NCBI RefSeq assembly: GCF_001293565.1
Contig: NZ_JXMU01000003.1
Coordinates: forward strand, 62,001 to 126,000
Length of the DNA stretch: 64,000 nucleotides
Origin: Ahrensia marina
GTDB lineage: Bacteria > Pseudomonadota > Alphaproteobacteria > Rhizobiales > Rhizobiaceae
Direction of reading: 5' to 3'
Part shown: positions 1,934 through 58,137 of the stretch, in pieces
How the letters are laid out: each line of letters starts with the position of its first letter
How positions within the stretch are numbered: position 1 is the first letter of the stretch
Made by a program: the position numbers and the translations under genes
Notes under the pieces: model-generated
Database searches by the model: none
What the model was told of the DNA's origin: nothing
What the model saw: only the letters and a program-made list of their open reading frames with translations

Positions 1934-3354
1934 TGCTATCAAGATTCTCTTCCATGATGAAAACGACTGCGGCGCGGTTATCCGCGCTGTATCTGCTGCT
2001 GTTTTCGATATGCGCGATCTTTCTTGTTTTCTATATGACGCATCTGGCCGGTGGTTTTCTCATCAACCAGACAAGAACGTCTTTGAACCAGGAACTGCAA
2101 AGCCTCAACCGTGTCTACAATCGCGGCGGCATTCGACTGTTGGTTCGCGAAATTGATCGTCGCTCGCGCAGACCGGACGCTTTTGTCTATCTGGTTTCGG
2201 ATCAGCAGGACCGTATTCTCGCAGGTAATATTGCTAAAATCGGTCGCGGTGTTTTGAAGAAGGAAGGCTACACGCCAAAACCATTCCGTTACACGCGCAT
2301 TGGTGAGGAAAACGAAGAACTGGATGACGATGATGCGCCGCGGGCGATAGGCCAGCGTATCAAATTTCAAAATGGGCTGACCGTTCTTGTCGGACGTGAT
2401 TTGGGTGAGCCTGACCGGTTCAAAAAGATTATCAGAAGCTCGCTGGGTTTGGCTCTCGGCATTATGGCTCTGGGCGGCTTGTTGATATGGTTCTTTGTCG
2501 GGCGGCGTGCGCTACGCAGAATCGATAGCGTTTCAAAAGCGAGTGCGGACATTGTCGGCGGTGATCTGAGCAAGCGCTTGCCGGTCTCAACGGCCAATGA
2601 CGAGTTTGATCGTTTGTCCGTCAGCCTCAATGCGATGCTTGGCCGTATTGAGAAGCTGAACAGCGGTTTGCGAGAAGTCTCGGACAATATTGCGCACGAT
2701 TTAAAAACGCCGCTCACACGGCTGCGAAATCGCGCAGAAGCCGCTTTGCGCAGTGGCAAATCAGATGACGATTATCGTGATGCCCTCAATGATATGATAG
2801 CTGAATCCGACAAACTCATTCAGTTATTCAATGCGATGCTGCTCATCTCAAGAGTGGAGGCCGGATATTCCAAGCATAGCGAAACAGAGCTTCAGTTAAA
2901 CGAAATTGCCGAAGGTGTTGCGGAGCTATATGAGCCTTTGGTCGAGGAATCCGGTGGTCAGTTGATCTCCAAAATCGACGATAATTTGGTTGTAACTGGA
3001 AACAGACAACTCATTGGTCAGGCGTTGACGAACCTCATCGATAATGCCGTCAAATACGGTCAGAGCGATGACACAATTATCTCTATTTTAGGCAAGCGTT
3101 CCGACGATCAGAAAAGCATAACTCTCGCCGTTGAAGATAATGGTCCGGGTATTTCGGCTGAAAATTGTGAACGTGCTTTGCAGCGGTTTGTCCGTCTGGA
3201 TGAGAGCCGTTCCGAGCCGGGCTCCGGTCTTGGTCTCAGCCTTGTTGCCGCGATTATGGATATGCACAAAGGAACGCTCACTTTAGAGGATGCCGGTCCC
3301 GGATTGCGGGCAGTTCTGACATTTCCAATTCAGAAGACAACTGCTAAGACCTAG
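1933..3354 (+). CDS. Membrane sensor histidine kinase paired with the upstream regulator
   Basis: A 473-residue inner-membrane kinase. TM1 is at about 17-37, a periplasmic sensor domain at about 40-168 and TM2 at about 170-190. HAMP (190-242) is followed by HisKA with His255 in DNIAHDLKTPLTRLRNRAE. The HATPase domain shows an N box (NLIDNAVKYG, about 363-372), G1 (DNGPGI) and G2 (GSGLGLSLV). The order and one-base overlap with the OmpR regulator make them a cognate pair of the TctE/QseC-like type. The sensor domain contains an acidic run (ELDDDDA) that could bind cations, but the signal cannot be assigned from sequence. Confidence 0.92.
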   Translation: MLSRFSSMMKTTAARLSALYLLLFSICAIFLVFYMTHLAGGFLINQTRTSLNQELQSLNRVYNRGGIRLLVREIDRRSRRPDAFVYLVSDQQDRILAGNIAKIGRGVLKKEGYTPKPFRYTRIGEENEELDDDDAPRAIGQRIKFQNGLTVLVGRDLGEPDRFKKIIRSSLGLALGIMALGGLLIWFFVGRRALRRIDSVSKASADIVGGDLSKRLPVSTANDEFDRLSVSLNAMLGRIEKLNSGLREVSDNIAHDLKTPLTRLRNRAEAALRSGKSDDDYRDALNDMIAESDKLIQLFNAMLLISRVEAGYSKHSETELQLNEIAEGVAELYEPLVEESGGQLISKIDDNLVVTGNRQLIGQALTNLIDNAVKYGQSDDTIISILGKRSDDQKSITLAVEDNGPGISAENCERALQRFVRLDESRSEPGSGLGLSLVAAIMDMHKGTLTLEDAGPGLRAVLTFPIQKTTAKT

Positions 3355-3376
3355 TCATAATCTGACGAGGTTTGAT

Positions 3377-6352: not shown

Positions 6353-6409
6353 AATAAACACAGGCACTTAAAGCTCCAGCTGGATCAACAATGATGCATG
6401 GAGAATAAA

Positions 6410-6880
6410 ATGTCTGTATTGAAAAAAACAACAATCGCAGTTTTGAGCGTAGCGGTAATTGCGGGTTCCGTATCGGCTTCATTTGCTGAAAAACGCGGTG
6501 GCGGACGCGCAGAGATGCGCTTTGAAAAAATGGATGCCAATAGCGATGGTAAGCTTGATTTCGCCGAGTTCAGCGCGCCGCTGATCGAGCGTTTTGAAGG
6601 CCTTGATGCCGATAGCAACGGCGTCGTTACCAAAGCTGAAATCGAAGCTCTTGAAACAGAGAAAAAGGGCGAAAAACGCCGGGCAATGAGAATAGCAAAG
6701 CGCTTCGATCTTGATGGTAATGAAGAAGTAACACGGGCAGAACTTGAAAACCGCCAGCAGAAATTTTTCGCCTTGATGGATAAAAACGATGATGGTTTTG
6801 CAACGCTCGACGAAATGCCGAAGCACGCTAAGAAAAGAGGCGACCGTAAAGGCAAGAAAGAGCGCGGTGACCGCGGCTAA
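6410..6880 (+). CDS. Secreted EF-hand calcium-binding protein
   Basis: A 156-residue protein with an N-terminal signal peptide (about 1-26, cleavage near SASFAEK) and four EF-hand loops: DANSDGKLDFAE (42-53), DADSNGVVTKAE (66-77), DLDGNEEVTRAE (100-111) and DKNDDGFATLDE (124-135). Loop 3 has Glu instead of the invariant Gly at loop position 6, so it may bind Ca2+ poorly. The C-terminus is strongly basic (KKRGDRKGKKERGDRG). The start is the ATG at 6410, preceded by GGAGAA; an in-frame ATG at 6398 has no ribosome-binding site. It is presumably a periplasmic Ca2+ buffer or sensor; the precise role is unknown. Confidence 0.85.
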   Translation: MSVLKKTTIAVLSVAVIAGSVSASFAEKRGGGRAEMRFEKMDANSDGKLDFAEFSAPLIERFEGLDADSNGVVTKAEIEALETEKKGEKRRAMRIAKRFDLDGNEEVTRAELENRQQKFFALMDKNDDGFATLDEMPKHAKKRGDRKGKKERGDRG

Positions 6881-6896
6881 TCGAACGTCATAATCA

Positions 6897-6924
6897 AGAG
6901 GCCGCTTATTCAGCGGCCTCTTTT
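6897..6924. terminator. Bidirectional terminator between convergent genes
   Basis: The stem GAGGCCGC/GCGGCCTC with loop TTATTCA is flanked by A- and T-runs. It serves the EF-hand gene on the plus strand and the PAS kinase on the minus strand; the kinase stop codon lies inside the loop and its last codons inside the stem. Confidence 0.8.
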
Positions 6925-9170
6925 ATCGTGGCATCATGTTCAATGGGAATACGCACAGAAACGATCGTTCCTTTGCCTTCCACTGAACGAATTTTCATCG
7001 AGCCGCCATGAAGTTGCGCCAGTGACTTGGAAATCGCGAGGCCAAGGCCAGAACCGGTGTGATTTTTGGAAAATTGGTTCTGCACCTGTTCAAATGGCTT
7101 GGCTATGCGCTTTAGTGCTGCTTTGGGGATGCCGCAGCCCGTATCTTCAATCGTAATTTGCAGGGCATTGGAAAGTGCTTTGCAGCGCACTTTGATGCGG
7201 CCACCTTCTTCGGTGAATTTTACCGCATTGGATACCAGATTAATCAGAATCTGCTTCATTGCCCGGCGGTCCGCAAGGATCGACATGTCGCAACTGATGT
7301 TCTGCTCAACGTGAATGTTTTTCTGCTCGGCCTGAAGTGAAAGCATTTGAACGCTTTCCTCGATCAGCGGGCGAAGCTCAATATCTTCTTTTTCAAGAAC
7401 AACACGGCCCGCTTCAATTTTAGACATTTCCAGAATGTCATTGATAACGCCAAGCAGGAAGCTGCCGCTTTTATTGATATCTTTGGCATATTCATCATAA
7501 CGATCAGAGCCAAGAGGCCCGAACATCTTGCTTTGCATAATGTCAGAAAAGCCGATGATTGCGTTAAGCGGTGTACGTAGTTCATGGCTCACATTGGCTA
7601 GGAATTCGGTTTTCGCCAGATAGGCAGCTTCCGCAACTTCTTTTGCCTTGAGATATTTTTTGTTGAGCTCGGAAAGCTCCATCGCTTTAAGCTGTGATTT
7701 TGTACGTTCGATAGTCACTTGTTCAACGGATGAAATAAGGCACTTCTTACTTTCCTGAAGGCGTTCTTCTTGGAGTTTCAACTGCGTGATATCAGTGCCG
7801 ACAGAGATCATGCCACCGGCCTGTGTCTGCCGCTCATTGACCTGCAACCAGCGGCCATCAGCGATTTGCCGCTCGTAAGTTTTCGATGTGCCCAGTTCGT
7901 CATCGCTGACAAGACGACGCTCGATCAATGGCTCCCTGATCAACTTTGTAATTTGACTGCGCGGGGTGCCCGGTATCAGGGCTTCGTCGGAAAGGCCGTT
8001 ATATTCAGCGAATTTCTTGTTGCACAGAACCAGCTTGTCATCGTCATCCCAAAGTGAGAACGATTCAGATGTGCTTTCAATAGCCGCTTTCAAGTTTTGG
8101 CTGGCGATTTCTGACTGTTCTGCAAGACGGTGGTTTTCTGTTACATCAACGGCAATGCCGATCAGGTGGTTGCCGCCGGATGGATGTTCGACGAGTTTTG
8201 TGCGAATACGCAGCCTTACAAAGTGACCTTCCGCGTGCCGCATACGGATAATTTCATCGACAGCGGTAATTTCATGTGCGGCAGCGCGCTGGGCAAGTTC
8301 GAACAGGTCCATGTCTTCGCTGTGAACCATCGGAGATATCTCGCCGAATGACAGCACATCATCGATAGGTTCATAGCCCAGCATTTCAAACATTGACCGC
8401 GACCAGAAAATACGGCCGTGAGCCAGATCCCAATCCCACAAGCCGCAATGACCGCGTGCGAGTGCCATCTCTACGCGTTTCAAGGTTTCGCGATAAACTT
8501 TTCCGGCTGACCGGCTGCGTGCGATTTGTGCAAAATAGGCATAAAGCAAAATGATGAGAATGCTGGAGGTCAGCGCAAACACAGTCACCGTAAGCGCGCA
8601 TCGTCGTTGCCAGGCGGCATAAAGGTCCGCCTCGGATTGCATAACGGCGATAACTGAAGAACCACCGCCAATTTTTGTGGCGCTAACAATGTGCGGTGTT
8701 CCATTCAGCAAAAGTTCCTGAACGCCAGCATCTTGTCCGAACAGAAACAAGGCTTGCGACTGACTGAGAATTGCAGGCAGATTTTTCCCGAACAGCGATT
8801 GATCACCGCCGCGCATGCCAATGATTTCGCCATCTTCGCCCGTAACAACAACGAACCGGCCTTCATGAGTTGCTTCAGGAGGCAGGACACGCACGAGTAT
8901 TTGTTCAAAATCCGGGCCGCTTACCGGCGCAAAGCCATTGTCACGGGCGTTGTCGACAGCACTTTTTGCAGAAGACGCGAGTAGCGAAGCAAACATCCGG
9001 CCTTGCTCGCCAGCGATTTGCCGGTCAGCCAGCAATGTTGTGCCGCGTACAAAAAACAAGCCGCATAGGAAAATCATAATTAAAATGGGTATGGAGCGCT
9101 TCAGATAAGGTTCCAAAACTGAAATCGGGCTTGCCACCGGCTCCGCAAGAAATTTTGCGTGGCCTTCCAT
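6906..9170 (-). CDS. pleC: PleC/DivJ/PdhS-like membrane PAS sensor histidine kinase
   Basis: A kinase of about 754 residues. TM1 is at about 23-45, an extracytoplasmic domain at about 46-195 and TM2 at about 197-218, followed by PAS domains (about 245-500). HisKA has His near 528 in NVSHELRTPLNAIIGFSDIM, and the adjoining MFGPLGSDRYDEYAKDI is typical of the PleC/DivJ/PdhS kinases that signal to DivK and control CtrA and the cell cycle. HATPase boxes are NLVSNAVKFTEEGG, DTGCGIP and GSGLGLAIS. From memory, pleC of Sinorhizobium sits in the same degP-glnE-pepN neighbourhood, which supports the name. The frame is open to 9317; the ATG at 9170 is preferred because TM1 then sits near the N-terminus, but its ribosome-binding site is weak. 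Confidence 0.82.
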   Translation of the reverse strand: MEGHAKFLAEPVASPISVLEPYLKRSIPILIMIFLCGLFFVRGTTLLADRQIAGEQGRMFASLLASSAKSAVDNARDNGFAPVSGPDFEQILVRVLPPEATHEGRFVVVTGEDGEIIGMRGGDQSLFGKNLPAILSQSQALFLFGQDAGVQELLLNGTPHIVSATKIGGGSSVIAVMQSEADLYAAWQRRCALTVTVFALTSSILIILLYAYFAQIARSRSAGKVYRETLKRVEMALARGHCGLWDWDLAHGRIFWSRSMFEMLGYEPIDDVLSFGEISPMVHSEDMDLFELAQRAAAHEITAVDEIIRMRHAEGHFVRLRIRTKLVEHPSGGNHLIGIAVDVTENHRLAEQSEIASQNLKAAIESTSESFSLWDDDDKLVLCNKKFAEYNGLSDEALIPGTPRSQITKLIREPLIERRLVSDDELGTSKTYERQIADGRWLQVNERQTQAGGMISVGTDITQLKLQEERLQESKKCLISSVEQVTIERTKSQLKAMELSELNKKYLKAKEVAEAAYLAKTEFLANVSHELRTPLNAIIGFSDIMQSKMFGPLGSDRYDEYAKDINKSGSFLLGVINDILEMSKIEAGRVVLEKEDIELRPLIEESVQMLSLQAEQKNIHVEQNISCDMSILADRRAMKQILINLVSNAVKFTEEGGRIKVRCKALSNALQITIEDTGCGIPKAALKRIAKPFEQVQNQFSKNHTGSGLGLAISKSLAQLHGGSMKIRSVEGKGTIVSVRIPIEHDATIKEAAE

Positions 9171-9309
9171 TCCGTCAGCATCAAACCTCGTTAGATCAGC
9201 GAATGACAAAGTGGTCCCCTTAGCGCCAAGCAGCGCTTTGTAAAACAGCCCCCATAGCTGCCCTCTGCAGTGATTTTGGATACGCAGCTGCCGAAACACA
9301 ACGAAGCAG

Positions 9310-9347
9310 CTAGACACAATGAATCAAAAGTGATTCCCTGTGTCTAG
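9310..9347. repeat. 38-bp interrupted palindrome upstream of the PleC-like kinase
   Basis: Outer arms CTAGACACA (9310-9318) and TGTGTCTAG (9339-9347) are perfect complements. Inner arms GAATCA (9321-9326) and TGATTC (9331-9336) are also perfect, separated by AAAG. It lies 140-177 bases upstream of the chosen kinase start and about 78 bases downstream of pepN. There is no T-run on either side, so a regulatory site or transcript structure is more likely than a simple terminator. Confidence 0.6.
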
Positions 9348-9424
9348 TCCCTTGAGTCAAATAATTAAGAAAAACTTTAACAGTTTTATCTTTGTTCCGT
9401 TTTGAGACGGTTTTTACGGACTTG

Positions 9425-12070
9425 TTAAGCCAGTGTTCGCTCAAGAATATCGCGCACATCGCGCGACAGTTTCTTTTTTGCTGCCAATGTTTTGAGCGCC
9501 TCATGTGCATGGCCCGCACGATCTTTCTCTAAATTGCGCCATGAACGCATAGCGGTAATCAAACGCGCTGCAACTTGCGGGTTAATTTCATCCAACCGGC
9601 CGGTCGCATCACATAAGAAACGATATCCCGCACCATCAGCCCTGTTAAAACCGGTTGGATTGCCAATCGCAAACGAGCCGAAAAGAGAACGGACACGGTT
9701 TGGATTCTCCCAAGAAAAGTTTTCCGCTTTGCTCAAGGCTTCCACTCTCTCAAGAGCATTGCTGCCGGGCATCATGGCCTGAATAGCGAACCATTTATCC
9801 GTCACGATTGCATTGTCCGCGTACTGTTTCTTAAATGCTTCCAGCGCTGAGGCAGTTTCTTCTGCATAAGGCGCTTGAAGGGCTAGAATGCTTAAAGCGT
9901 CCATGCGGTCCGTCATGTTGTCTGCATTGGCAAAGTGGTTCGCCACCAGTTCCAGATCACCGTTCGCACGAACGATGAGACCAAGGGCCGTATTTCGTAA
10001 TGCCCGTATGCCCGCGCTGGAGGCATCCGGTACGAATGGCTTTGCAGGTTGAAGCTTCGAATAAGTTGCCTCAAGGGACACCAAACACTCTTGCGAGATT
10101 GCTGCGAGAATGTGTGTGCGAGCCGTATGAATAGCATCAGGGTCGATGTCACTCCCGATTTCGCGGGCGATATCTGCTTCGCTAGGCAGGTTAAGGCACA
10201 GAGCTCGATATGCCGGCTCTAATGTGTCATCATTCAATATTTCATGCAGAATTGTTGTCAGTTCAGGTGAGGTGGAAATTTCCTCACCCTGCTGAACATC
10301 CTTTGTCGCCTGTCGTAGCTGGCGCATAGCAAGGCTGGATAAAGCCTCCCAGCGTGCAAAAGCATCGCTGTCACGGCGTGCCAGAAATGCCAGTTCTTTG
10401 TCGCTGCGCTCGGGTATTGTCGTTACAGGCGCTGAAAAGCCGCGCAATACAGAAATGACGGGCTTTTGTTCAACACCCTCGAATTGGATTGTGTGTTTAG
10501 GCTCGCGCACATGGATAACATCGCCGGTCACATCAGCGCCGGTGACGCCGCTAAACGACAGATCACTGCCCTCAGGCCCAACAAGCCCAAACCGCACCGG
10601 AATATGCATCGGCGCAACTTCGCCGGTGACAACTGTCGATCTTAAACTCTGTGTAATGTTGACGGTAAAGCGCTTGTTTGCTTCGTCATAATTTGTTCCG
10701 ATTGCAAGATTTGGCGTTCCTGCCTGATCATACCAGAGCGCAAATTGTTTGAGATCAGCGCCGGTTGCATCTTCAAAACATTTTATGAAATCTTCAATCG
10801 TTGCAGCATCGCCATCATGGCGTTCAAAATATAGATCAAGCGCACGCTTGTACCCGTCTTCGCCGACAATTGTCTTGAACATTCCGACGACTTCAGAGCC
10901 TTTTTCGTAGACGGTCGACGTATAAAAATTGTTGATCTCAGAATAACGCTGAGGCCGCACAGGATGGGCGAGAGGGCCGGCATCTTCAGGAAACTGGTGC
11001 GCGCGTAATCCGCGGACTTCGGCAATCCTTTTAACAGGAGCCGACCGTTCGTCAGCGGAGAAAGAGTGGTCACGATAAACCGTAAGCCCTTCTTTCAGGC
11101 ATAGCTGAAACCAGTCGCGACAGGTGATCCGGTTTCCTGTCCAGTTATGAAAATATTCGTGGGCAATAATGGCTTCAATATTCGCATAATCCTGATCGGT
11201 GGCAGTTTCCGGATCTGCCAAGACATATTTGTCATTGAAAATGTTGAGGCCCTTATTTTCCATCGCGCCCATGTTAAAGTCTGAAACCGCAACGATCATG
11301 AATATGTCCAGATCATATTCGCAGCCATAAACCTCTTCATCCCACTTCATTGAGCGGATAAGCGAGTCCATGGCATATGCCGCCCGTGGCTCTTTGCCGT
11401 GTTCAACATAGATTTCGAGAGAAACTTCACGGCCTGAACGGGTGGTAAAGCTGTCTTTGAGAACACCCAGATCACCGGCGAAGAGGGCAAACAGATAAGC
11501 AGGCTTTGGATGTGGATCATGCCACACTGCAAAGTGGCGACCATTATCAAGTTCACCTTTGTCAGTGCAATTACCGTTGGACAGCAGCAATGGGACCGTA
11601 TCGCGGTCGCCTTCAATGCGCACCGTGAAAACAGAAAGGATATCCGGTCGGTCAAGGTAGTAAGTGATGCGGCGGAAACCTTCGGCCTCGCACTGTGTGC
11701 AGAAATTACCTGAAGTTCGGTAAAGGCCCATCAGCTTCTTGTTTGCAGTCGGATTGATTTTGGTGACAATTTCAAGCGTAAAGGCATCGCTATCCGGAAG
11801 CTGTGTAATGCTTAAGCCATCGTCATTGAGTGTGTAATCATCACGGGCGAGCGCGCTATTGTTGATCGCTATGGATACCAGCTTCAGCTCATCGCCGTCC
11901 AACTCAAGCGGTGCGTCGGTGGCAACGCCTTTAGCGCGGCGTATCGTCAATTTGGATGTGACGACAGTCTCTTGCGTATCCAGTAAAAAATCCAAATCTA
12001 CCTTATCAATCACATAGTCACTGGGACGATAATCTTTGAGTAGAATAGCTGTTCCTGATTGCGTACGCAT
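9425..12070 (-). CDS. pepN: Aminopeptidase N (M1 family zinc metallopeptidase)
   Basis: Cytoplasmic broad-specificity aminopeptidase that removes N-terminal residues from peptides. At 881 residues it is close to E. coli PepN (870). The substrate-anchoring motif GAMENKG lies at about 265-271 and the zinc site HEYFHNW at about 302-308, with the downstream zinc-ligand Glu in LKEGLTVYRD. The DUF3458 Ig-like and C-terminal helical domains of the PepN subfamily follow. The ATG at 12070 gives the standard N-terminus. It stands alone, divergent from the host-attachment-family gene across 222 bases and upstream of the PleC-like kinase on the same strand. Confidence 0.95.
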   Translation of the reverse strand: MRTQSGTAILLKDYRPSDYVIDKVDLDFLLDTQETVVTSKLTIRRAKGVATDAPLELDGDELKLVSIAINNSALARDDYTLNDDGLSITQLPDSDAFTLEIVTKINPTANKKLMGLYRTSGNFCTQCEAEGFRRITYYLDRPDILSVFTVRIEGDRDTVPLLLSNGNCTDKGELDNGRHFAVWHDPHPKPAYLFALFAGDLGVLKDSFTTRSGREVSLEIYVEHGKEPRAAYAMDSLIRSMKWDEEVYGCEYDLDIFMIVAVSDFNMGAMENKGLNIFNDKYVLADPETATDQDYANIEAIIAHEYFHNWTGNRITCRDWFQLCLKEGLTVYRDHSFSADERSAPVKRIAEVRGLRAHQFPEDAGPLAHPVRPQRYSEINNFYTSTVYEKGSEVVGMFKTIVGEDGYKRALDLYFERHDGDAATIEDFIKCFEDATGADLKQFALWYDQAGTPNLAIGTNYDEANKRFTVNITQSLRSTVVTGEVAPMHIPVRFGLVGPEGSDLSFSGVTGADVTGDVIHVREPKHTIQFEGVEQKPVISVLRGFSAPVTTIPERSDKELAFLARRDSDAFARWEALSSLAMRQLRQATKDVQQGEEISTSPELTTILHEILNDDTLEPAYRALCLNLPSEADIAREIGSDIDPDAIHTARTHILAAISQECLVSLEATYSKLQPAKPFVPDASSAGIRALRNTALGLIVRANGDLELVANHFANADNMTDRMDALSILALQAPYAEETASALEAFKKQYADNAIVTDKWFAIQAMMPGSNALERVEALSKAENFSWENPNRVRSLFGSFAIGNPTGFNRADGAGYRFLCDATGRLDEINPQVAARLITAMRSWRNLEKDRAGHAHEALKTLAAKKKLSRDVRDILERTLA

Positions 12071-12223
12071 AAATGACCTTAAGGTGAGGAGGGGTGGAAG
12101 GGTGAATGTTCGTTATACTGAAATCTATGGGGTGTTGTTAAGCGTTTAAAGACATTTTCGGCTATCGTGGAATGTTTGATGAACTTTAAAGCGTTTTTTG
12201 TGACGTGCTTGCTTCAAATTTGA

Positions 12224-12250
12224 GGAACAATTGAGCTTTTAAAGCGTTTT
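12224..12250 (+). promoter_or_regulatory. Candidate EcfG (general stress sigma factor) promoter
   Basis: GGAAC (12224-12228) is separated by 16 bases from CGTTTT (12245-12250), which matches the alphaproteobacterial EcfG/SigT consensus GGAAC-N16/17-CGTT. It lies 43 bases upstream of the ATG at 12293. A 13-base element, TTTAAAGCGTTTT, overlaps the -10 part and occurs again at 12185-12197. Confidence 0.6.
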
Positions 12251-12292
12251 GTCTCAGGGTCGATACAATAACGAAAAACGCAAGGAGACAAC

Positions 12293-12706
12293 ATGTCTAA
12301 AGGCACAGTTCCAGTTGACGCGCTGATCGTGGTCGGGTCCGGTGAAGGCGCCCATTATTTTCGCAACATTGGCACCAATCTTGATATTAAGCTCAAAGAC
12401 GAAGGCGCTTTAAAGCCCGGTGATCTTGCAGATCAAGGCCCGTCAGGAAAGCAACCACCTGATATGTCGGCCAAAGAATCAATGGAAATGACATTTTCCA
12501 AAATATTGGCATCTGACCTTTATGATAAAGCGCACAAAGGTTCTTACAAAGATGTTGTGCTGGCTCTTGATCCCGAAACATTGGGCGAAGTGCGCCCGCT
12601 TCTCCATAAAGAGGTGTTGAGCAAAGTCTCGATGGAATTGCCCAAAACTCTCGTAAACCACCCTGTTACAGACATTGAACGGTCTCTATCTGCCGCAGTG
12701 AACTAG
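12293..12706 (+). CDS. Host attachment family protein (baeRF/PF10116-like)
   Basis: A 137-residue protein resembling the family annotated as 'protein required for attachment to host cells'. The typical features are an N-terminal strand with VDALIVVGSGEGAHYF and the C-terminal block LALDPETLGEVRPLLHKEVLSKV followed by DIERSL. The fold is related to the eRF1 domain 2 / baeRF superfamily, and its biochemical role is poorly defined. The start has a strong AAGGAG site (12282-12287). It is monocistronic, bounded by a terminator, and preceded by a candidate EcfG promoter, which suggests induction in the general stress response rather than a dedicated adhesion function. Confidence 0.75.
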   Translation: MSKGTVPVDALIVVGSGEGAHYFRNIGTNLDIKLKDEGALKPGDLADQGPSGKQPPDMSAKESMEMTFSKILASDLYDKAHKGSYKDVVLALDPETLGEVRPLLHKEVLSKVSMELPKTLVNHPVTDIERSLSAAVN

Positions 12707-12730
12707 CATCAGGTTTAAATCGTAAAAGTA

Positions 12731-12768
12731 TCAGGCACCTTGTTTCTGGCAGGGTGCCTGATTTGTTT
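12731..12768 (+). terminator. Rho-independent terminator after host-attachment-family gene
   Basis: The perfect 9-bp stem TCAGGCACC (12731-12739) / GGTGCCTGA (12753-12761), with a 13-base loop, is followed by TTTGTTT. Confidence 0.8.
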
Positions 12769-12811
12769 CCGGCATTTAAAATGCAAATAAACCGGTTTCT
12801 ACGCCATCTGT

Positions 12812-14074
12812 TTAAACGCCGTGTTCAGACGGGTCGGCTTCTTCCTCAGAACGCGGATCGAGCTGATACATCTCAGGCGTTTGCGTGCGTCCGAATGACG
12901 TATAGGCAAATTCACCACGCTCCTCTTCGCTCGGTGCATCAGCTACTTTCAAGCGCAATATTGTGAAGATGGCAAAGGCAGCAAAGCCAAAATGAATGGC
13001 TGAAAACAATCCTGAACTGCCCATAAAGCCGATCAATAGGCCCGCGATGATAGGACCAATCATAGATCCAACAGCATAGACAATCAGCAGGCTGGATGAG
13101 GTTTCGACAAATGCACCCGGTTCGGCGTGGTCATTGGCATGAGACACGACGAGGGAATAAAGCGGCATCAGCACACCGCCAAAAAGGAACATGGCGACAA
13201 ACAATGTTAAATTGGTCGTCGGTTCATAAAAGGTAAGAATACCGGACACCAATATGCCAACGAATGTACATGCGAGCATGACATAACGGCGGTCCATTTT
13301 ATCGGAGGCGCGGCCGAGCGGAAATTGAAGGACAACGCCGCCAAGCATAGCGACCACAAGCATCACAGCGATCTGCGAGCTGGAATAACCTAGAAGCGAG
13401 CCGTAAACCGGCGCCTGATAGCTCCATGCGCCGAATGTAAAGCCCGTGACAAGCGCGCCGATGGTCGCAACCGGAGACATTGAATAAAGGCGTCTTAGAT
13501 CGACTTTTACCTCTGCTGGCGGCTGGGGCGAAATAGCAGGCGAGACACCGGTCGGAATAACAGCGGCTGCATAGCTCATGGCGGCAAAAATAAACAGTGT
13601 GGTAAGAGCAGGGTCCGACGTTACCAGCAAAAACTGCCCGATCATGAGGCCGACCGTGTTGGTTACCATATAGGAAGAAAACACAAAGCCGCGCGACTCG
13701 TTGGAAGCACGCTCGTTAAGCCAGCTTTCGACCACCATATAAGCACCTGACAAGGCAAAGCCAGCAACACCCCGCAACAGGAACCAAACCGGAATGTTGA
13801 CGAAAACAGCATGTGCCATCAGCGAAATCGCAAGCATGGCAGCCATAACCGCATAGACGCGCACATGACCGATACGGCGAACAAGCCACGGAATATAAAT
13901 ACAGCCTGCAACAAAGCAGGCGGCATAAAACGCGCCCATAAAACCAATCGTCAAAGGCGACCAACCTTCAAGTCCTGCGCGCAGCGGCAATAAAATACCG
14001 GTCAAACCAGACCCGATAAGAAGAAAGAATGTCGATATCAACAGTCCTGCAATAGGGCGAAGCTGTAAAATCAT
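12812..14074 (-). CDS. MFS transporter (YcaD/UPF0226-like), copy 1
   Basis: A 420-residue inner-membrane transporter with about 12 hydrophobic segments. Recognisable MFS parts are the loop 2-3 region RRIGHVRVYA, an ESWLNERA motif near TM5, and a second loop (GRASDKMDRRYVM) in the middle. The C-terminal tail has QTPEMYQLDPRSEEEAD. It is a clear paralogue of the gene at 17091-18353, sharing length, the VESWLNER and DKMDRR motifs and the tail pattern RxQTxExxxxDPRxxEE. The substrate is unknown. Its start is 119 bases from the minus-strand glycosylase-like gene upstream, so it may share that promoter. Confidence 0.85.
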   Translation of the reverse strand: MILQLRPIAGLLISTFFLLIGSGLTGILLPLRAGLEGWSPLTIGFMGAFYAACFVAGCIYIPWLVRRIGHVRVYAVMAAMLAISLMAHAVFVNIPVWFLLRGVAGFALSGAYMVVESWLNERASNESRGFVFSSYMVTNTVGLMIGQFLLVTSDPALTTLFIFAAMSYAAAVIPTGVSPAISPQPPAEVKVDLRRLYSMSPVATIGALVTGFTFGAWSYQAPVYGSLLGYSSSQIAVMLVVAMLGGVVLQFPLGRASDKMDRRYVMLACTFVGILVSGILTFYEPTTNLTLFVAMFLFGGVLMPLYSLVVSHANDHAEPGAFVETSSSLLIVYAVGSMIGPIIAGLLIGFMGSSGLFSAIHFGFAAFAIFTILRLKVADAPSEEERGEFAYTSFGRTQTPEMYQLDPRSEEEADPSEHGV

Positions 14075-15333: not shown

Positions 15334-17043
15334 ATGAGCGATAACCCAATGAACGAACCACGCGAGAGTATGGAGTTTGACGTTGTTATTGTTGGTGCGG
15401 GACCGGCCGGTCTTGCCGCAGCGATAAAACTTAAACAGCTCAATGAAGAACTTTCCGTCGTCGTTCTGGAAAAAGGCGCTGAGGTTGGCGCTCATATCCT
15501 GTCAGGCGCGGTTGTTGATCCGATTGGTCTGGACAAATTGATCCCTGATTGGCGTGATGACGCTGAGCATCCGTTGAAAACACCGGTGACAGACGACCAG
15601 TTTTTGTTTCTTGGACCTGCGGGCTCCATCCGCTTGCCAAACTTTGCAATGCCGCCTTTGATGAACAATCACGGTAATTATATTGCCTCTCTTGGTAATG
15701 TAGCGCGTTGGCTGGCTGCCCGTGCCGAAGCACTTGGTGTTGAAATTTACCCTGGCTTTGCGGCTGCCGAAGTCATCTATGATGAAAGCGGCGCAATGAA
15801 AGGTGTTGCAACCGGCGATATGGGCATTGAAAAGGACGGCACGCCCGGTCCGATGTTTGCGCGCGGCATGGAACTGCATGGCAAATATGTATTGATAGCC
15901 GAAGGTGTCCGCGGTTCGCTTGCCAAACAGCTGATCAAAAAATTCGATCTCGATAAGGATTGCGAACCGGGCAAATTCGGCATCGGCATTAAAGAGCTTT
16001 GGCAGGTTGATCCGGCCAAGCATAAGCCAGGCCTTGTTCAGCACTCATTCGGCTGGCCGCTGGATATGAAAACAGGCGGCGGTTCATTTCTCTATCATTT
16101 GGAAGACAATCAGGTTGCCGTCGGCTTTGTGCTGCATCTGAATTACAAAAACCCTTACCTGTCACCGTTTGAAGAGTTCCAACGCTTCAAGACCCATCCG
16201 CGTATTCGCGAAACATTTGAAGGCGGTAAGCGTATTTCTTATGGTGCGCGCGCCATTACGGAAGGCGGCTGGCAATCTGTACCTAAAGTGTCATTCCCGG
16301 GCGGCGCACTGATTGGTTGCTCGGCAGGTTTCGTCAATGTGCCGCGCATTAAAGGCTCTCACAATGCGATACTTTCCGGCATACTTGCTGCAGAAAAAGT
16401 TGTTGAGGCGCTTAGTGCCGGCAAAGCAAATGACGATGCGCTCATCACGTATGAAAATGAATGGCGCAGCAGCGAAATCGGCAGCGACTTGAAAAAAGTC
16501 CGTAACGTCAAACCGCTATGGTCACGCTTTGGAACGGCACTGGGTGTCGGCATTGGCGGCATTGATATGTGGATCAACCAGCTTACCGGTGGCCGCTCGC
16601 TGCTGGGCACTTTGAAGCACGGCAAAACAGATGCGGAATCTTTGGAAAAGGCTGAAAAGCACAAACCGATTGATTATCCGAAGCCGGATGGCATTTTGAC
16701 ATTTGACCGGCTTTCTTCTGTGTTCCTGTCAAATACAAACCATGAAGAGAACCAGCCGGTTCACTTGAAGGTGTTGAATCAAGAACTTCAGAAATCGTCG
16801 GAATATGCTGAATTTGCTGGACCTTCTTACCGTTATTGCCCTGCGGGTGTGTATGAGTGGGTGGATAGCGCCGGTAATACAATCACTGCACCGCATGATT
16901 ATAAAGAGTCGGACGATGTACGCTTTCAAATCAATGCGCAGAACTGCGTGCATTGTAAAACATGCGATATCAAAGACCCGAACCAGAACATCAACTGGAC
17001 AGTGCCGCAAGGCGGTGAGGGGCCGGTTTATCCGAACCTGTAA
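15334..17043 (+). CDS. Electron transfer flavoprotein-ubiquinone oxidoreductase
   Basis: ETF-QO (etfD/etfQO) passes electrons from ETF, reduced by acyl-CoA and related dehydrogenases, to membrane ubiquinone. The 569-residue protein has an N-terminal FAD site (VVIVGAGPAGLAAA), a central ubiquinone/membrane-facing domain, and a C-terminal 4Fe-4S domain with RYCPAG and CVHCKTCDIKDPNQNINW, ending with the family-typical GGEGPVYPNL. The start is the ATG at 15334 after GGGAG; the TTG at 15331 is less likely. It is monocistronic and followed by a strong terminator. A candidate LiuR palindrome lies upstream. Confidence 0.96.
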   Translation: MSDNPMNEPRESMEFDVVIVGAGPAGLAAAIKLKQLNEELSVVVLEKGAEVGAHILSGAVVDPIGLDKLIPDWRDDAEHPLKTPVTDDQFLFLGPAGSIRLPNFAMPPLMNNHGNYIASLGNVARWLAARAEALGVEIYPGFAAAEVIYDESGAMKGVATGDMGIEKDGTPGPMFARGMELHGKYVLIAEGVRGSLAKQLIKKFDLDKDCEPGKFGIGIKELWQVDPAKHKPGLVQHSFGWPLDMKTGGGSFLYHLEDNQVAVGFVLHLNYKNPYLSPFEEFQRFKTHPRIRETFEGGKRISYGARAITEGGWQSVPKVSFPGGALIGCSAGFVNVPRIKGSHNAILSGILAAEKVVEALSAGKANDDALITYENEWRSSEIGSDLKKVRNVKPLWSRFGTALGVGIGGIDMWINQLTGGRSLLGTLKHGKTDAESLEKAEKHKPIDYPKPDGILTFDRLSSVFLSNTNHEENQPVHLKVLNQELQKSSEYAEFAGPSYRYCPAGVYEWVDSAGNTITAPHDYKESDDVRFQINAQNCVHCKTCDIKDPNQNINWTVPQGGEGPVYPNL

Positions 17044-54147: not shown

Positions 54148-54345
54148 TTGGTTCCGCGAGTCTTTAATGGCAGCGGATTAAAAGGGAACATGGTGAGGAA
54201 TAGCCGAAGGGCGCCGAATCCATGACTGCCCCCGCAACTGTGAGCGGATTGTCGATTGCAAATAGCCACTGGGTACGACGTCCCGGGAAGGCGCAATAGG
54301 CTATAATCCGTGAGTCAGGAGACCTGCCAAGAAATCTGCTGTTCG
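54148..54345 (+). ncRNA. Cobalamin (B12) riboswitch
   Basis: The conserved elements occur in order: GGTTCC (54150-54155) pairing with GGGAAC (54183-54188), GGTGAGGAA, CCCCCGCAACTGTGAGCGG, AGCCACTGGG (54264-54273), CCCGGGAAGGCG (about 54282-54293) and the B12 box GTGAGTCAGGAGACCTGCC (about 54310-54328). The downstream stretch to 54457 has GC-rich complementary segments (GGACGGGGTG / CCCGCCCATCGTCC) that could serve as the expression platform. It precedes the DUF1636 gene, so the whole DUF1636-ABC operon should be repressed by cobalamin. Confidence 0.95.
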
Positions 54346-54457
54346 GACGGGGTGTTCCGGGGTTGTAGGTGTAAACGTCGCAACGCTTGTGGGCCCGCCC
54401 ATCGTCCGGAATTTCGCCTCTTCACTTGACCACCCCTTAACGCAAAAGGGATGTTAA

Positions 54458-54889
54458 ATGGCGAGTGGACACAAAACGATACTGTCAGTCTGTACACGGT
54501 GCAGGCCGTCCGGCGTACCAATAGAGCTTGCAGACAGACCCGGTTATAAACTTGCTGAAGAATTAAGGGCGCTTTTTCCCAAAAGCCGTGCCGCACAAAA
54601 AGGTGTTGCCCTGCGCGGTGTGTGCTGCATGAGCCAGTGCAAACGGCACTGTGTCATTGCCTTGTCCGGAGAAGGAAAATTTACACTTCTTTTCGGCGAT
54701 CTCGATCATGAGGCCGATGCCGGTTCAATCCTCGAAATGGCTGCCCTTTATGCGGAACAGGCTGACGGGTTGATTGAACGACCGGACCGCCCAGCGCCAC
54801 TACGCGCCGGTATTTTAGGCCGCGTGCCGCCCGATGATCACGACCAGTTCATCGACGAAGATTTCACAATATCCAGTCACACGAATTAG
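54458..54889 (+). CDS. DUF1636 cysteine-rich metal-binding protein, B12-riboswitch controlled
   Basis: A 143-residue protein of the DUF1636 family with a thioredoxin-like [2Fe-2S] ferredoxin pattern: Cys12 and Cys15 in SVCTRCR and Cys56, Cys57, Cys61 and Cys65 in GVCCMSQCKRHC. It has no signal peptide, so it acts in the cytoplasm. DUF1636 genes are frequently associated with cobalt and cobalamin metabolism, but no reaction is known. The start follows AAGGG. It lies between the riboswitch and a solute-binding protein gene, 16 bases apart, and is the first gene of the regulated operon. Confidence 0.85.
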   Translation: MASGHKTILSVCTRCRPSGVPIELADRPGYKLAEELRALFPKSRAAQKGVALRGVCCMSQCKRHCVIALSGEGKFTLLFGDLDHEADAGSILEMAALYAEQADGLIERPDRPAPLRAGILGRVPPDDHDQFIDEDFTISSHTN

Positions 54890-54905
54890 CTTAGGAGAGA
54901 GCGCG

Positions 54906-56426
54906 ATGACATTTGGGAATATTTGGCCGAAACGGAAACGCGCCATTGCGGCGTTTGCAGTCGGTATCTCGCTAATGACGGCCGCCTTGCTGACACCTCA
55001 ATCCGCATGGGCTGAGGATAAATTGATTATTGGGCAAACGTTTCTGACAAATGGGCTGGACCCGTCTGAAGGTTCAGTGGGTTGGACACTTGTTACCCAT
55101 GGTATCGGAGAACAGCTTTTCAGCGTGTCTAAGCAAGGTAAAATCGAACCCAATTTGGCGGAGACTGCCATTGAAAATAGCGATGGTACCTGGACCATTA
55201 CATTGGCGGACAATCGATTCTTTTCAGATGGAACGCCTGTGACGGCCAAAATGGTTGCTGCTGGTTTTAATAGAACCGGACAGACAAATCCTTCTGCCCG
55301 CTCGACATCCGGCTTGTTGAGTTTTCATGCGGTTGATGAACGCACTTTGAAAGTCCACAGCGAAAAACCGACAAAGATTTTGCCTTCTATTCTCGCTGAA
55401 TGGGCTTTCCCCGTTTATATGGAAAAAGACGGCGAGTTTATTTTCACAGGTCCGTTCGCGGTGGAGAGTTTAACGGCTGATAAAAGCATCGATCTCGTCC
55501 CGAACCCGCACTACGAAAATGCGGAAAACCGTCCTGAACTCACTATTCGCAGAATACCGGACGGGCAGTCATTGGCGCTGGCTTTTGCTTCCGGCGAACT
55601 TGATCTTGCTTTTAACCTGCCGGTAGAAAGCCTATCGATGTTTGCAGGTGATAAAGCAAAGCAAGTGAAATCCTTTCCCGTAGCTTATCAATATATGATG
55701 TGGATGAACACATCTTCCGATGTTTTGCAGGATGTGCGCGTTCGCAAGGCGATTGACATGGCCATCAACAGGGAAGATTTGGTTGCCGCTGCACGGGCAG
55801 GTTCCGTTGCAACCGGTGCCTTTTCCCAAACCTATCCTTTTGCGGCTGAAAAAGAACTGCCACTTGACGTGAATAAGGCCAATGCATTGCTCGATGAAGC
55901 AGGCTGGATAAAGGGGGAGGACGGTGTTAGGCGCAAAAACGGTCAGCCGATGCAATTGGTACTGTGGGCCTATCCGCAACGGCCGGACCTCATTACATTT
56001 CAGCCGGTTATCCGCGCGGCATTGGCAGGGCTTGGTATATCGGTAAAAACACAAGTGACAGAATCTCCAACCGATATTGCCAAGAGCGGGGCATATGATC
56101 TTTTCTTGTGGGCTCAACACACCGCGCCGGCTGGCGATCCGGCTCAGTTTCTATCGCTCTTTCTTGAAACAGATGCTGCGAACAATTACGCCCGTTGGTC
56201 CAATGCGGAATATGACGCTGTCATTGAACAATTGCGCGCTGAAGGAGATACAGATGTGCGTGCGGAACTGGCAAGAAAGGCGCAAGATATTATCGCTACC
56301 GAGGCACCGGTTTCATTCCTAGTGACGCCTGAATGGCATGTAGGCGTATCAGTCCATTTGAAAAACTATGAGCCTTGGGGTTCTGATTATTATATCATTC
56401 GCCCTGACTTGCAGGTTTCCAAGTAA
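54906..56426 (+). CDS. ABC transporter solute-binding protein (SBP_bac_5; peptide/nickel type), B12-regulated
   Basis: A 506-residue family 5 periplasmic binding protein with a signal peptide (KRKRAIAAFAVGIS, hydrophobic core, cleavage near SAWAE). Features include LTNGLDPSEGSVGWTLVTHGIGEQLF, NSDGTWTITLADNRFFSDGTPVTA and MWMNTSSDVLQDVRVRKAIDMAINRE. This family binds peptides, nickel or metal-chelates. The cobalamin riboswitch upstream makes cobalt (free or chelated) or a corrinoid-related ligand the best guess. The ATG at 54906 follows AGGAG eight bases away. Two permeases follow, but no ATPase. Confidence 0.88.
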   Translation: MTFGNIWPKRKRAIAAFAVGISLMTAALLTPQSAWAEDKLIIGQTFLTNGLDPSEGSVGWTLVTHGIGEQLFSVSKQGKIEPNLAETAIENSDGTWTITLADNRFFSDGTPVTAKMVAAGFNRTGQTNPSARSTSGLLSFHAVDERTLKVHSEKPTKILPSILAEWAFPVYMEKDGEFIFTGPFAVESLTADKSIDLVPNPHYENAENRPELTIRRIPDGQSLALAFASGELDLAFNLPVESLSMFAGDKAKQVKSFPVAYQYMMWMNTSSDVLQDVRVRKAIDMAINREDLVAAARAGSVATGAFSQTYPFAAEKELPLDVNKANALLDEAGWIKGEDGVRRKNGQPMQLVLWAYPQRPDLITFQPVIRAALAGLGISVKTQVTESPTDIAKSGAYDLFLWAQHTAPAGDPAQFLSLFLETDAANNYARWSNAEYDAVIEQLRAEGDTDVRAELARKAQDIIATEAPVSFLVTPEWHVGVSVHLKNYEPWGSDYYIIRPDLQVSK

Positions 56427-56428
56427 CG

Positions 56429-57364
56429 ATGGCAATGCTTACGGTGACACGCATAGTAACTTTGACTTTTTTGTCATGGCTGGCGGTTGTCACCGTAAGT
56501 TTCTTTGTTTTGCGACTGGTTCCGGGGGATCCGGTCGACATTTACATCAATCAGATGAACATAAACGCCTCAGGAGATGTTAAGGCCCTGTATCGTGCTG
56601 CTTGGGGCCTCGACCGGTCAGTGATCCAGCAATATGGGATCTGGCTGTTTGGCTTTTTAACATTGAACTGGGGCGATTCATTTGTATTGGGAAAGCCGGT
56701 TTTATCCATCCTTTCCGCCGGTCTGCGATGGTCGGCCGCAATCGGGATCACTGGTTTTGCACTGGCTTTGATTACCGGCTTTTGCCTGGGCTATGCGGCT
56801 GCTCTTCGTCCGCGCAGGATTGCCGATAAACTGTCGCGCGCCCTTGCAGTCGGCGGCCAATCCTTGCCGGCATTTGCTGTCGGCTTGATTTTACTATGGG
56901 TACTGGCAGTCAAGCTTCAGATTATACGTCCGTTTTCCGGCGGCAATGTCGAAAATCTGCTACTGCCCATTTTGCTGGTCGCGTTCTTTTCCACCGGTAG
57001 TATCTCGCGCATCACCCGTGCCGCATTTAACGAAGTTGCAGCCGCGCCCTATATGCGTACAGCCGTTGCCAAGGGACATTCGCAAGCATCTGCCCTGTGG
57101 TTTCACGGGCGGCGACATGCAGTTATTGTACTGATGGCCGGTATTGCGCCGGATTTAGCCTGGATTGTCGGCGGAACCGCTGTTTCAGAAGTTGTGTTTG
57201 CAGTGCCCGGACTATCCGAACGCCTGATCGCGGCGGTGACAACGCGCGATTATCCCGTCTTGCAATCTTATTTGGCGATTATCGCATTCTGGATCGTGGT
57301 TGGCCTGCAATTGGCCGGCGCTCTAAGGCGACACTTGGACCCGCGTCTGAGGGAAGCCTTATGA
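56429..57364 (+). CDS. ABC transporter permease (DppB/NikB type)
   Basis: A 311-residue membrane protein with six or so hydrophobic segments. It begins ARIVT-like VTRIVTLTFLSWLAVVTVSFFVLRLVPGDPVD, the DppB signature, and contains the cytoplasmic EAA-like loop SRITRAAFNEVAAAPYMRTAVAKG and TAVSEVVFAVPGLSERLIAAVTTRDYPVLQ. It starts two bases after the binding-protein gene and overlaps the second permease by four bases. Together with that protein it forms the membrane channel. Confidence 0.9.
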   Translation: MAMLTVTRIVTLTFLSWLAVVTVSFFVLRLVPGDPVDIYINQMNINASGDVKALYRAAWGLDRSVIQQYGIWLFGFLTLNWGDSFVLGKPVLSILSAGLRWSAAIGITGFALALITGFCLGYAAALRPRRIADKLSRALAVGGQSLPAFAVGLILLWVLAVKLQIIRPFSGGNVENLLLPILLVAFFSTGSISRITRAAFNEVAAAPYMRTAVAKGHSQASALWFHGRRHAVIVLMAGIAPDLAWIVGGTAVSEVVFAVPGLSERLIAAVTTRDYPVLQSYLAIIAFWIVVGLQLAGALRRHLDPRLREAL

Positions 57365-58137
57365 AGCATAATCTTTCCCGCAATGTTACACTGTGGATGT
57401 GCCTGATGTGGGCTTTGCTCACAATCTCCGGACTTGTTTGGCAACCTCACAATCCTCATTCAGTTGATCTTACCGGCAGCTTTCAATTGCCGTCTGCACT
57501 GCACTGGCTTGGCACGGACCATCTGGGTAGAGATGTCGCTTCGCGCTTAATGATTGGCGCTCAAACCTCACTTTTTGCTATTTTTATTGTTTTATGCGGC
57601 AGTTTGGTTGTGGGCCTCATTGCCGGAACAATCATTGCAGTTGCGCCAAGCAGTATTGCGAGCTTTGTGCGCTGGCTGGCGCAGACGACACTCGCTATCC
57701 CCACGCTCATTATGGCCCTTTTTCTGGCGGCGCTGATAGGGCCGGGGCTGTATTCTATCGCTCTTGCATTAATTATCAGCGCGTGGGCGCCATATGCATT
57801 AAGCATTGCCGCTTTGGTTGACCGCCTGCGTGCGGAGCAGTTCTGGCGCGCAAGCCTTGCACTCGGTGCAAGCCCGCTCAATGTTGTCATTCGGCATTTA
57901 CTTCCCAACACATGGCCTGTCATCGGCGCTTTGGCCGGCGCAGATGCAGGGCGCGCTGTCATCCTTGTAACATCGCTGGGGTTTCTGGGTTTATCCGCCG
58001 ATACAGGCCAGCCGGAATGGGGCGCAATGATTTATGAGTATAGAATGTTCCTGTTTTCAGCGCCGCACCTTGTGCTTGCTCCGGTCTTTACGACCGCACT
58101 GTCGGCACTTTTGCTGAATATCGCTTTGGATCGATGA
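57361..58137 (+). CDS. ABC transporter permease (DppC/NikC type)
   Basis: A 258-residue membrane protein with the DppC landmarks HWLGTDHLGRDVASRLMIGAQTSLF, LALGASPLNVVIRHLLPNTWP (EAA-like loop) and the C-terminal GLSADTGQPEWGAMIYEYRMFL. The ATG at 57361 overlaps the DppB stop (ATGA). Unusually no ATP-binding gene follows: only 40 bases separate its stop from a convergent minus-strand gene. NikDE-like ATPases must come from elsewhere in the genome or have been lost. Confidence 0.9.
   Translation: MKHNLSRNVTLWMCLMWALLTISGLVWQPHNPHSVDLTGSFQLPSALHWLGTDHLGRDVASRLMIGAQTSLFAIFIVLCGSLVVGLIAGTIIAVAPSSIASFVRWLAQTTLAIPTLIMALFLAALIGPGLYSIALALIISAWAPYALSIAALVDRLRAEQFWRASLALGASPLNVVIRHLLPNTWPVIGALAGADAGRAVILVTSLGFLGLSADTGQPEWGAMIYEYRMFLFSAPHLVLAPVFTTALSALLLNIALDR

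Follow-up and report, generated by a model that had tools for sequence, protein, structure and literature searches.

Results

Layout of the operon

The window analysed here is a stretch of 64,000 nucleotides from the alphaproteobacterium Ahrensia marina (NCBI RefSeq assembly GCF_001293565.1, contig NZ_JXMU01000003.1, positions 62,001 to 126,000 of the forward strand), and it carries, on its plus strand, an operon in which a cobalamin riboswitch is followed by the genes of a DUF1636 protein and of an ATP-binding cassette (ABC) importer that has no ATPase of its own. The riboswitch aptamer (RF00174, 54132..54345) was matched by cmscan over the full model (1-189) with 124.8 bits against a gathering score of 31.5 (E 6.6e-31). 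Behind it lie the genes for a 143-aa DUF1636 protein (54458..54889; Pfam 102.1 bits, thioredoxin-like ferredoxin fold in its AlphaFold model), a 506-aa family 5 solute-binding protein of NikA-like type (54906..56426; Pfam SBP_bac_5, E 2.3e-65), a NikB/OppB-type permease (56429..57364; BPD_transp_1, E 8.3e-27) and a NikC/OppC-type permease (57361..58137; BPD_transp_1, E 1.5e-16), both permeases having a canonical coupling loop. The start of the binding-protein gene was set at 54906, where AGGAGAG precedes it; the open reading frame listing has a longer frame from 54834. All genes run in one direction and are tightly packed, the two permease genes sharing four bases (57361-57364), and all four frames are open in the window. 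A convergent aldolase-II gene has its stop at 58177, 39 bases past the end of the last permease gene at 58137, and the G+C contents of window (50%) and operon (52%) are similar.

A family 5 binding protein together with two BPD_transp_1 permeases places the operon among the type I importers of the Opp/Dpp/Nik kind, but the ATPase that would be sought in the same operon is missing, no ABC ATPase gene being found there. The best NCBIfam models for the permeases are Opp2B (218.4 bits, cut-off 350) and Opp2C (178.2 bits, cut-off 300), both below cut-off, which agrees with the nickel/dipeptide type proposed for them in the first-pass annotation of this DNA. That annotation had also described a well-formed cobalamin riboswitch (the Rfam match begins 16 bases before its start), a six-Cys DUF1636 protein, a family 5 binding protein, two Dpp/Nik-type permeases and no ATPase, all of which are borne out by Rfam, Pfam and NCBIfam.

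In the leader, a candidate hairpin (CCCUU/AAGGG, 54434..54450, plus strand), paired in both the minimum-free-energy and the centroid folds, would cover the ribosome-binding site of the DUF1636 gene; the leader stretch that contains it folds no better than shuffled sequences (z -0.41), and a terminator-like site was looked for in the riboswitch leader without any being found. Four cobalamin riboswitches are present in the Ahrensia marina genome, the window's included, and the other three precede a CbiM-family protein, a CobQ-type gene (then CobU, CobW and CobN) and a nitroreductase-family protein, which we take to be BluB. Because the remaining riboswitches precede genes of these types, the operon looks like part of a B12-responsive gene set in an apparently B12-making bacterium.

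Related loci and the absence of ATPase genes

The operon is patchily distributed, since the binding protein was found in 1 of 60 relatives besides the window's genome (E up to 1e-60) and in 8 of 296 genomes of the order (E up to 1e-80). To collect related loci, denoted here by L numbers, an alignment built from eight binding proteins was run against 84,980 species genomes; the 54 loci retained, 53 of them proteobacterial, are those holding one of two peptide patterns and are not exhaustive, L028 and L034 lying outside the set. By BLAST, 54 of these loci contain the binding protein, 53 the first permease and 51 the second, and at least 1 kb beyond the second permease was available in 49 loci and 3 kb in 46. 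ATPases were sought by motif rules applied to open frames within 5 kb past the second permease. No ATPase gene directly follows it in the proteobacterial loci (53 of the 54, with at least 1 kb to inspect in 48), and L083, from a Lachnospiraceae metagenome-assembled genome, is the only one of the 54 with ATPase genes, two of them, in that position. Other same-strand matches within the 5 kb, their types read from sequence, are in L057 (1.2 kb off, an 871-aa frame beside a nuclease-like gene), L074 (4.4 kb off, in a sugar-type importer) and L075 (3.5 kb off, in a separate complete Opp system). In the neighbourhood of the operon, L068, L075 and L153 have a complete Opp system, L049 has an ATPase pair ~8 kb off and L063 has an ATPase fragment upstream; as Opp systems are common, this proximity was not taken as evidence.

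The same kind of ATPase-free operon is found on annotated plasmids of Shinella, Neorhizobium galegae and Paracoccus aminophilus, so the missing ATPases are not an effect of draft assembly. A search for an ATPase-bearing member in the family of Pararhodobacter found none, the single genome matched among 198 (E 1e-90, best candidates per genome scored) being that of Pararhodobacter itself. Relatives in Aerococcus and Fusobacterium (L154 and L157, 35-36% identity) have two ATPase genes, one of the Aerococcus pair being short. The simplest history would therefore be one in which the proteobacterial branch lost the ATPase genes and gained a ferredoxin gene.

The ratio of non-synonymous to synonymous substitution rates (dN/dS) in close pairs was 0.06-0.22 for the binding protein (seven pairs), 0.07-0.22 and 0.04-0.25 for the first and second permease (six pairs each), 0.11-0.25 for a fusion protein described below (four pairs) and 0.20-0.47 for DUF1636 (three pairs). 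The permeases are under purifying selection. Both also keep the ATPase-docking (EAA) loop, with the pattern seen in the ATPase-bearing Opp systems of the window genome; the identity of these coupling loops to those of the genome's other permeases and of L083 is only 18-38%, and for this reason no ATPase partner was chosen by loops.

Opp-type ATPases are nevertheless plentiful: they occur in all 54 genomes carrying the loci (30 and 24 in two scans), which is compatible with sharing without demonstrating it. Elsewhere in the window genome there are 12 oligo_HPY matches, nine of them above cut-off. The search for orphan OppD/OppF-type ATPases suggested by the first-pass annotation came out empty, no orphan pair being seen among the Opp-type sets inspected: those on contigs C1, C2, C11, C17, C20, C23 and C63 adjoin permeases (C20 begins inside the first permease of its set), and a match on C12 sits in a predicted phosphonate-type cluster. 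One of these neighbourhoods on C1 (L101, C1:70000-84000) holds a complete Opp-type importer (4449-13571) whose two ATPases are fused into one 557-aa protein; the importer ends convergently against a run of genes that, judged from their sequences, would be of cobalamin type.

The binding protein

In a profile search against solved proteins, the nickel-binding protein of Bacillus halodurans (3t66) came first with 269.9 bits, S. aureus NikA scored 187.9, and E. coli NikA and peptide binders ranked below at ~142 bits. With the model of the window protein (predicted local distance difference test score, pLDDT, 91.7), a structure search placed S. aureus NikA on top (Z 43.8 and 43.3, root-mean-square deviation, rmsd, 2.5), the next entry having a Z of 39.4. 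Two residues, His65 and His405, are nearly invariant in 35 members and are non-His in the aligned NikA proteins, and they are proposed as candidate metal or chelate contacts. In L054 (13311-14705) and L072 (4898-6361) another binding-protein gene, 42-43% identical, is located behind the second permease, which suggests two binding proteins for one permease pair.

DUF1636 and the alternative lead gene

The six Cys of the window DUF1636 protein are at positions 12, 15, 56, 57, 61 and 65, and in an 18-row alignment 12, 15, 61 and 65 are invariant and 57 nearly so. Its AlphaFold model (pLDDT 85) matches PDB 9jn8, a Rhodobacter capsulatus ferredoxin of thioredoxin-like fold, at E 5e-9 and 40% identity and, more weakly (E 1.3e-3, 17% identity), the thioredoxin-like [2Fe-2S] ferredoxin of Aquifex. 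Pfam score and fold together thus assign it to the DUF1636/thioredoxin-like ferredoxin group, a relation already proposed by an earlier computational paper (PMC4520260), and the conserved Cys and modelled fold are compatible with a candidate [2Fe-2S]-type protein. In contrast with the 9jn8 ferredoxin, with which it has the fold in common, the window protein heads an importer operon.

Of 289 genomes from the class, 49 contain DUF1636, among them that of the window, and 30 of its loci were fetched, the 29 besides the window with ~1.5 kb on either side. A cobalamin riboswitch was found in 10 of these 29. In three (L105, L111 and L114) the order is riboswitch, DUF1636, a CobW-type GTPase and a CobN-like gene, the last two named from sequence; another of the 29, L117, is the importer operon without a riboswitch, with upstream sequence identical to that of L040. 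With riboswitches and cobW-cobN adjoining it in other loci, DUF1636 thus has a link to cobalt and B12 that does not depend on the importer. The first-pass annotation had recommended such a comparison of alphaproteobacterial DUF1636 neighbourhoods, and its proposal that the protein is an intracellular metal or Fe-S partner is compatible with the 9jn8 match and with the riboswitch-cobW-cobN loci, although the role itself is one that we infer.

Among the 54 loci, BLAST found DUF1636 as lead gene in 17, a fusion of a CbiX-like part with a [2Fe-2S] ferredoxin in 26 and neither in 11. The fusion is annotated as a '(2Fe-2S) ferredoxin domain-containing protein' in two plasmid records. No relation between DUF1636 and the fusion family was supported when their profiles were compared (probability 0.2%), and any kinship would consequently be one of fold class only. 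The usual CbiX-type motif is GHGS. In the fusion sequences inspected this motif is seemingly missing from the CbiX-like part, which scores 17.2 and 23.2 bits, near the cut-off of 22, and for both reasons no chelatase activity is claimed. The search of the L034 importer operon itself turned up no DUF1636 gene; ~6 kb past this operon, at 16239-16978, L034 has another cobalamin riboswitch, accompanied by a distantly related DUF1636 gene with 26% identity to that of the window.

Control by B12 and zinc

A B12-box pattern lies upstream in 42 of the 54 loci; Rfam was run on 13 of these and all were positive, including L083 with 79.3 bits. Eleven loci lack a riboswitch by pattern, with no Rfam match in any of the eleven, and L086, whose contig starts inside the DUF1636 gene and which also gave no Rfam match, belongs to neither class. 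On a tree of binding proteins, in which L086 was wrongly labelled as riboswitch-bearing and L084 was omitted as short, the riboswitch-less label requires six changes, at least three of them forced by well-supported branches; riboswitch control therefore came or went more than once. A Shinella plasmid locus (L155, 905-11110) has three cobalamin riboswitches within 6 kb, before nrdHIE, metE and the importer operon, and constitutes a small B12-shortage island.

A Zur weight matrix was built from five Zur sites of Paracoccus denitrificans (PMC5387054, Table 7) and applied to the 550 bases upstream, with 0.035 matches expected per region from a background of 990,403 positions. Sites of at least 12 bits were found in 9 of the 11 riboswitch-less loci, several of which are close relatives, and in 7 of 43 riboswitch-bearing regions, the window counted; the threshold was not preset, and the corresponding counts are 9/11 and 8/43 at 10 bits and 8/11 and 4/43 at 14 bits. 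No such operator was found upstream of the window operon, where the best score (4.6 bits) is at chance. Where a riboswitch is present, the sites are at -333 to -415, before the expected aptamer start, a position that would allow double control.

Zinc-starvation or CobW-family genes of ten families were found in the flanks of 21 of the 54 loci against 1 of 20 controls, a comparison to be read with the facts that the families were picked after being seen near the loci, that the loci are interrelated and that the control stretches were taken around Opp ATPase genes and not at random. Two of the 21 have only a CobW-family gene and one only a WD40-like gene, and none of the ten families was found in the 20 kb of the window that were tested. 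The neighbours in L036 match threonyl-tRNA synthetase, a hexapeptide (carbonic-anhydrase-like) protein, HisI and CobW-family GTPases, while matches to a ZnuA-type protein and to a ZinT-domain protein occur in L046 and L077, respectively; these neighbours resemble the gene set reported for Zur regulons (PMC2770081).

Two neighbouring genes recur in the collection. A WD40-like beta-propeller gene is near the operon in 5 of 54 loci (L036, at 2723-3772, L037, L043, L044 and L046) and in none of the 20 controls. A gene matching a ZinT-domain/AztD-like zinc protein, annotated aztD on the Neorhizobium plasmid, precedes the operon on the same strand in L060, L064, L066, L071, L076, L077, L080 and L085, where it sits upstream of the fusion gene.

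Discussion

Taken together, B12 control in most members, zinc links in others, kinship with nickel-chelate-type importers and a ferredoxin that is linked to CobW and CobN lead us to favour, with modest confidence, the reading that the operon encodes a B12-repressed type I ABC importer of cobalt, probably chelated, which is powered by the ATPases of other Opp systems; within it, we infer the substrate, the ATPase partner and the ferredoxin role. When B12 is plentiful the cobalamin riboswitch would shut the operon off, perhaps at translation. When it is not, the NikA-like binding protein would capture a cobalt complex in the periplasm, cobalt being suggested by analogy with its closest, nickel-type relatives, and the NikBC-like permeases would dock OppD/OppF-type ATPases of one or more other peptide or nickel importers, making transport dependent on an ATPase encoded elsewhere. 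In the cytoplasm, the DUF1636 protein would act on the imported metal, reducing it or passing it towards CobW and the CobN chelatase. Among relatives, the CbiX-like/[2Fe-2S] fusion takes the place of DUF1636, and in some of them a Zur-type site stands upstream, either without a B12 switch or alongside one, so that elsewhere in the family the importer is perhaps zinc-repressed. This mixed wiring agrees with a cobalt importer from which the cell would also profit during zinc shortage.

Several observations weigh against a cobalt importer of this kind. Family 5 binding proteins also bind peptides and sugars; the window protein scores 261.8 bits with NCBIfam Opp5A_nikA, well short of the cut-off of 600, and in the structure search the dipeptide binder DppA (Z 38.1) outranks B. 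halodurans NikA (Z 37.1, rmsd 5.1). Cobalt uptake by the operon would be redundant, as the window genome has its own riboswitch-preceded CbiM-type protein. No ATPase partner for the permeases was identified, and Rfam found no riboswitch at the Aerococcus and Fusobacterium loci. A divergent zinc-type gene faces away from the operon across the Zur-type site in L036, L037, L043, L046 and L088, and the site may act on that gene alone; the zinc-linked members could themselves be zinc importers. The presence of a CobN-family gene in 30 of the 31 genomes searched (that of the window plus 30 of the 54), with CbiM in six of the same 31, speaks for the cobalt reading, but the CobN count was made without background control for a family, PF02514, that also covers magnesium chelatase.

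The strongest of the alternatives, which we consider possible but rather unlikely, is that the substrate is zinc, nickel or a broad range of divalent-metal chelates, B12 control being one wiring of several. It would account for the Zur-type sites in nine of the eleven riboswitch-less loci, the zinc-starvation or CobW-family genes near 21 of the 54 and the nickel complexes bound by the closest solved binding proteins, but it is at odds with B12 control in the window and 42 of 54 relatives, with the uncontrolled CobN-family count of 30 in 31 genomes and with the riboswitch of the Lachnospiraceae relative L083. Import of a corrinoid or other B12 precursor that the ferredoxin then reduces appears quite improbable: B12 riboswitches also control corrinoid uptake and a ferredoxin could reduce corrinoid cobalt, yet the binding protein is of the nickel/peptide class, most genomes searched have a CobN-family gene, and some members of the family have zinc-starvation neighbours and Zur-type sites. 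Of the substrates named in the first-pass annotation (cobalt, a cobalt chelate or a corrinoid precursor), the metal and its chelate are thus retained and the corrinoid is disfavoured on account of these zinc links.

That the permeases work without ATP hydrolysis, as is reported for solitary CbiM- or BioY-type proteins, seems similarly doubtful. The lack of an ATPase gene directly behind the permeases in the proteobacterial loci speaks for it, whereas the conserved docking loops and the presence of Opp-type ATPases in 54 of 54 genomes point the other way. Type I importers that share an ATPase are also known, with multitask ATPases such as MsmX serving sugar importers (PMC7658222), from which the window system differs in being of a nickel/peptide type that should need an OppD/OppF-type ATPase. 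Decay after ATPase loss is very improbable and already contradicted, for although relatives outside the proteobacteria have ATPases, the ATPase-free gene set recurs across many families, the window's four frames are open and permease dN/dS is 0.04-0.25. Of the two explanations offered at first pass for the missing NikDE-like genes, a shared ATPase elsewhere is accordingly compatible with the docking loops and the Opp-type ATPases, decay is not supported by dN/dS, and the pattern proposed as the sign of a dead locus, relatives always having two ATPase genes, turned out the opposite way, proteobacterial relatives lacking them too.

Among known systems, the nearest group for the binding protein and both permeases is that of the NikABCDE/Opp5A-Opp2 nickel importers, to which S. 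aureus NikA belongs; the window operon differs in lacking NikDE ATPases, in its sub-cut-off NCBIfam scores, in its Fe-S-type lead gene and in being controlled by B12, with a Zur-type site in some relatives. NikABCDE systems predicted behind B12 riboswitches have been named for Clostridium tetani and Desulfitobacterium hafniense (Zhang et al. 2009, PMC2667541). Their layout is as in L083, but they are listed as NikABCDE, i.e. with ATPases, and are likened to the window operon here by description only. CbtJKL of the rhizobium Sinorhizobium meliloti is a cobalt importer of the ABC class that is controlled by a cobalamin riboswitch, although CbtJ is described as BtuF-like, of another transporter class (PMC7689651), while the window binding protein matches SBP_bac_5 only. 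The zinc-linked side of the family recalls pden1338-1344 of Paracoccus denitrificans, a zinc-responsive nickel/dipeptide-type cluster with COG0523 that is induced by zinc limitation from a Zur-bound promoter, gel shifts being described for the zur/znuA, aztA and pden1341 promoters (PMC5387054). That cluster differs in having an ATPase gene, and no DUF1636 protein is named for it; this likeness too is one of description, not of sequence. In the open-access literature searched, DUF1636 is named in two papers, and among the listed titles and abstract openings none was found to describe the operon, the lack of ATPases or the dual regulation.

Cobalt has been reported to relieve zinc starvation in Cupriavidus and Pseudomonas, with Zur-regulated import of cobalt-pyochelin in the latter (PMC11340326, PMC11481552, PMC13083405). 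It is tempting, if speculative and on balance improbable in its full form, to see the whole family as a supply line of cobalt in place of zinc, in which an ATPase-less nickel-type importer is joined to a ferredoxin, DUF1636 or the fusion, that would free cobalt reductively, by analogy with the ferric-siderophore reductases that free iron, and which would be switched on at low B12, low zinc or both.

These findings provide a testable role for DUF1636, a domain of unknown function, and for the CbiX-like/ferredoxin fusion. They also suggest that an importer of the nickel/peptide type can be maintained over evolutionary time while lacking its own ATPase genes, such sharing being best known for sugar importers. 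In addition, regulation by B12 and by zinc starvation meet here in a single transporter family, so that the idea of cobalt import as a means of sparing zinc becomes testable outside Pseudomonas and Cupriavidus.

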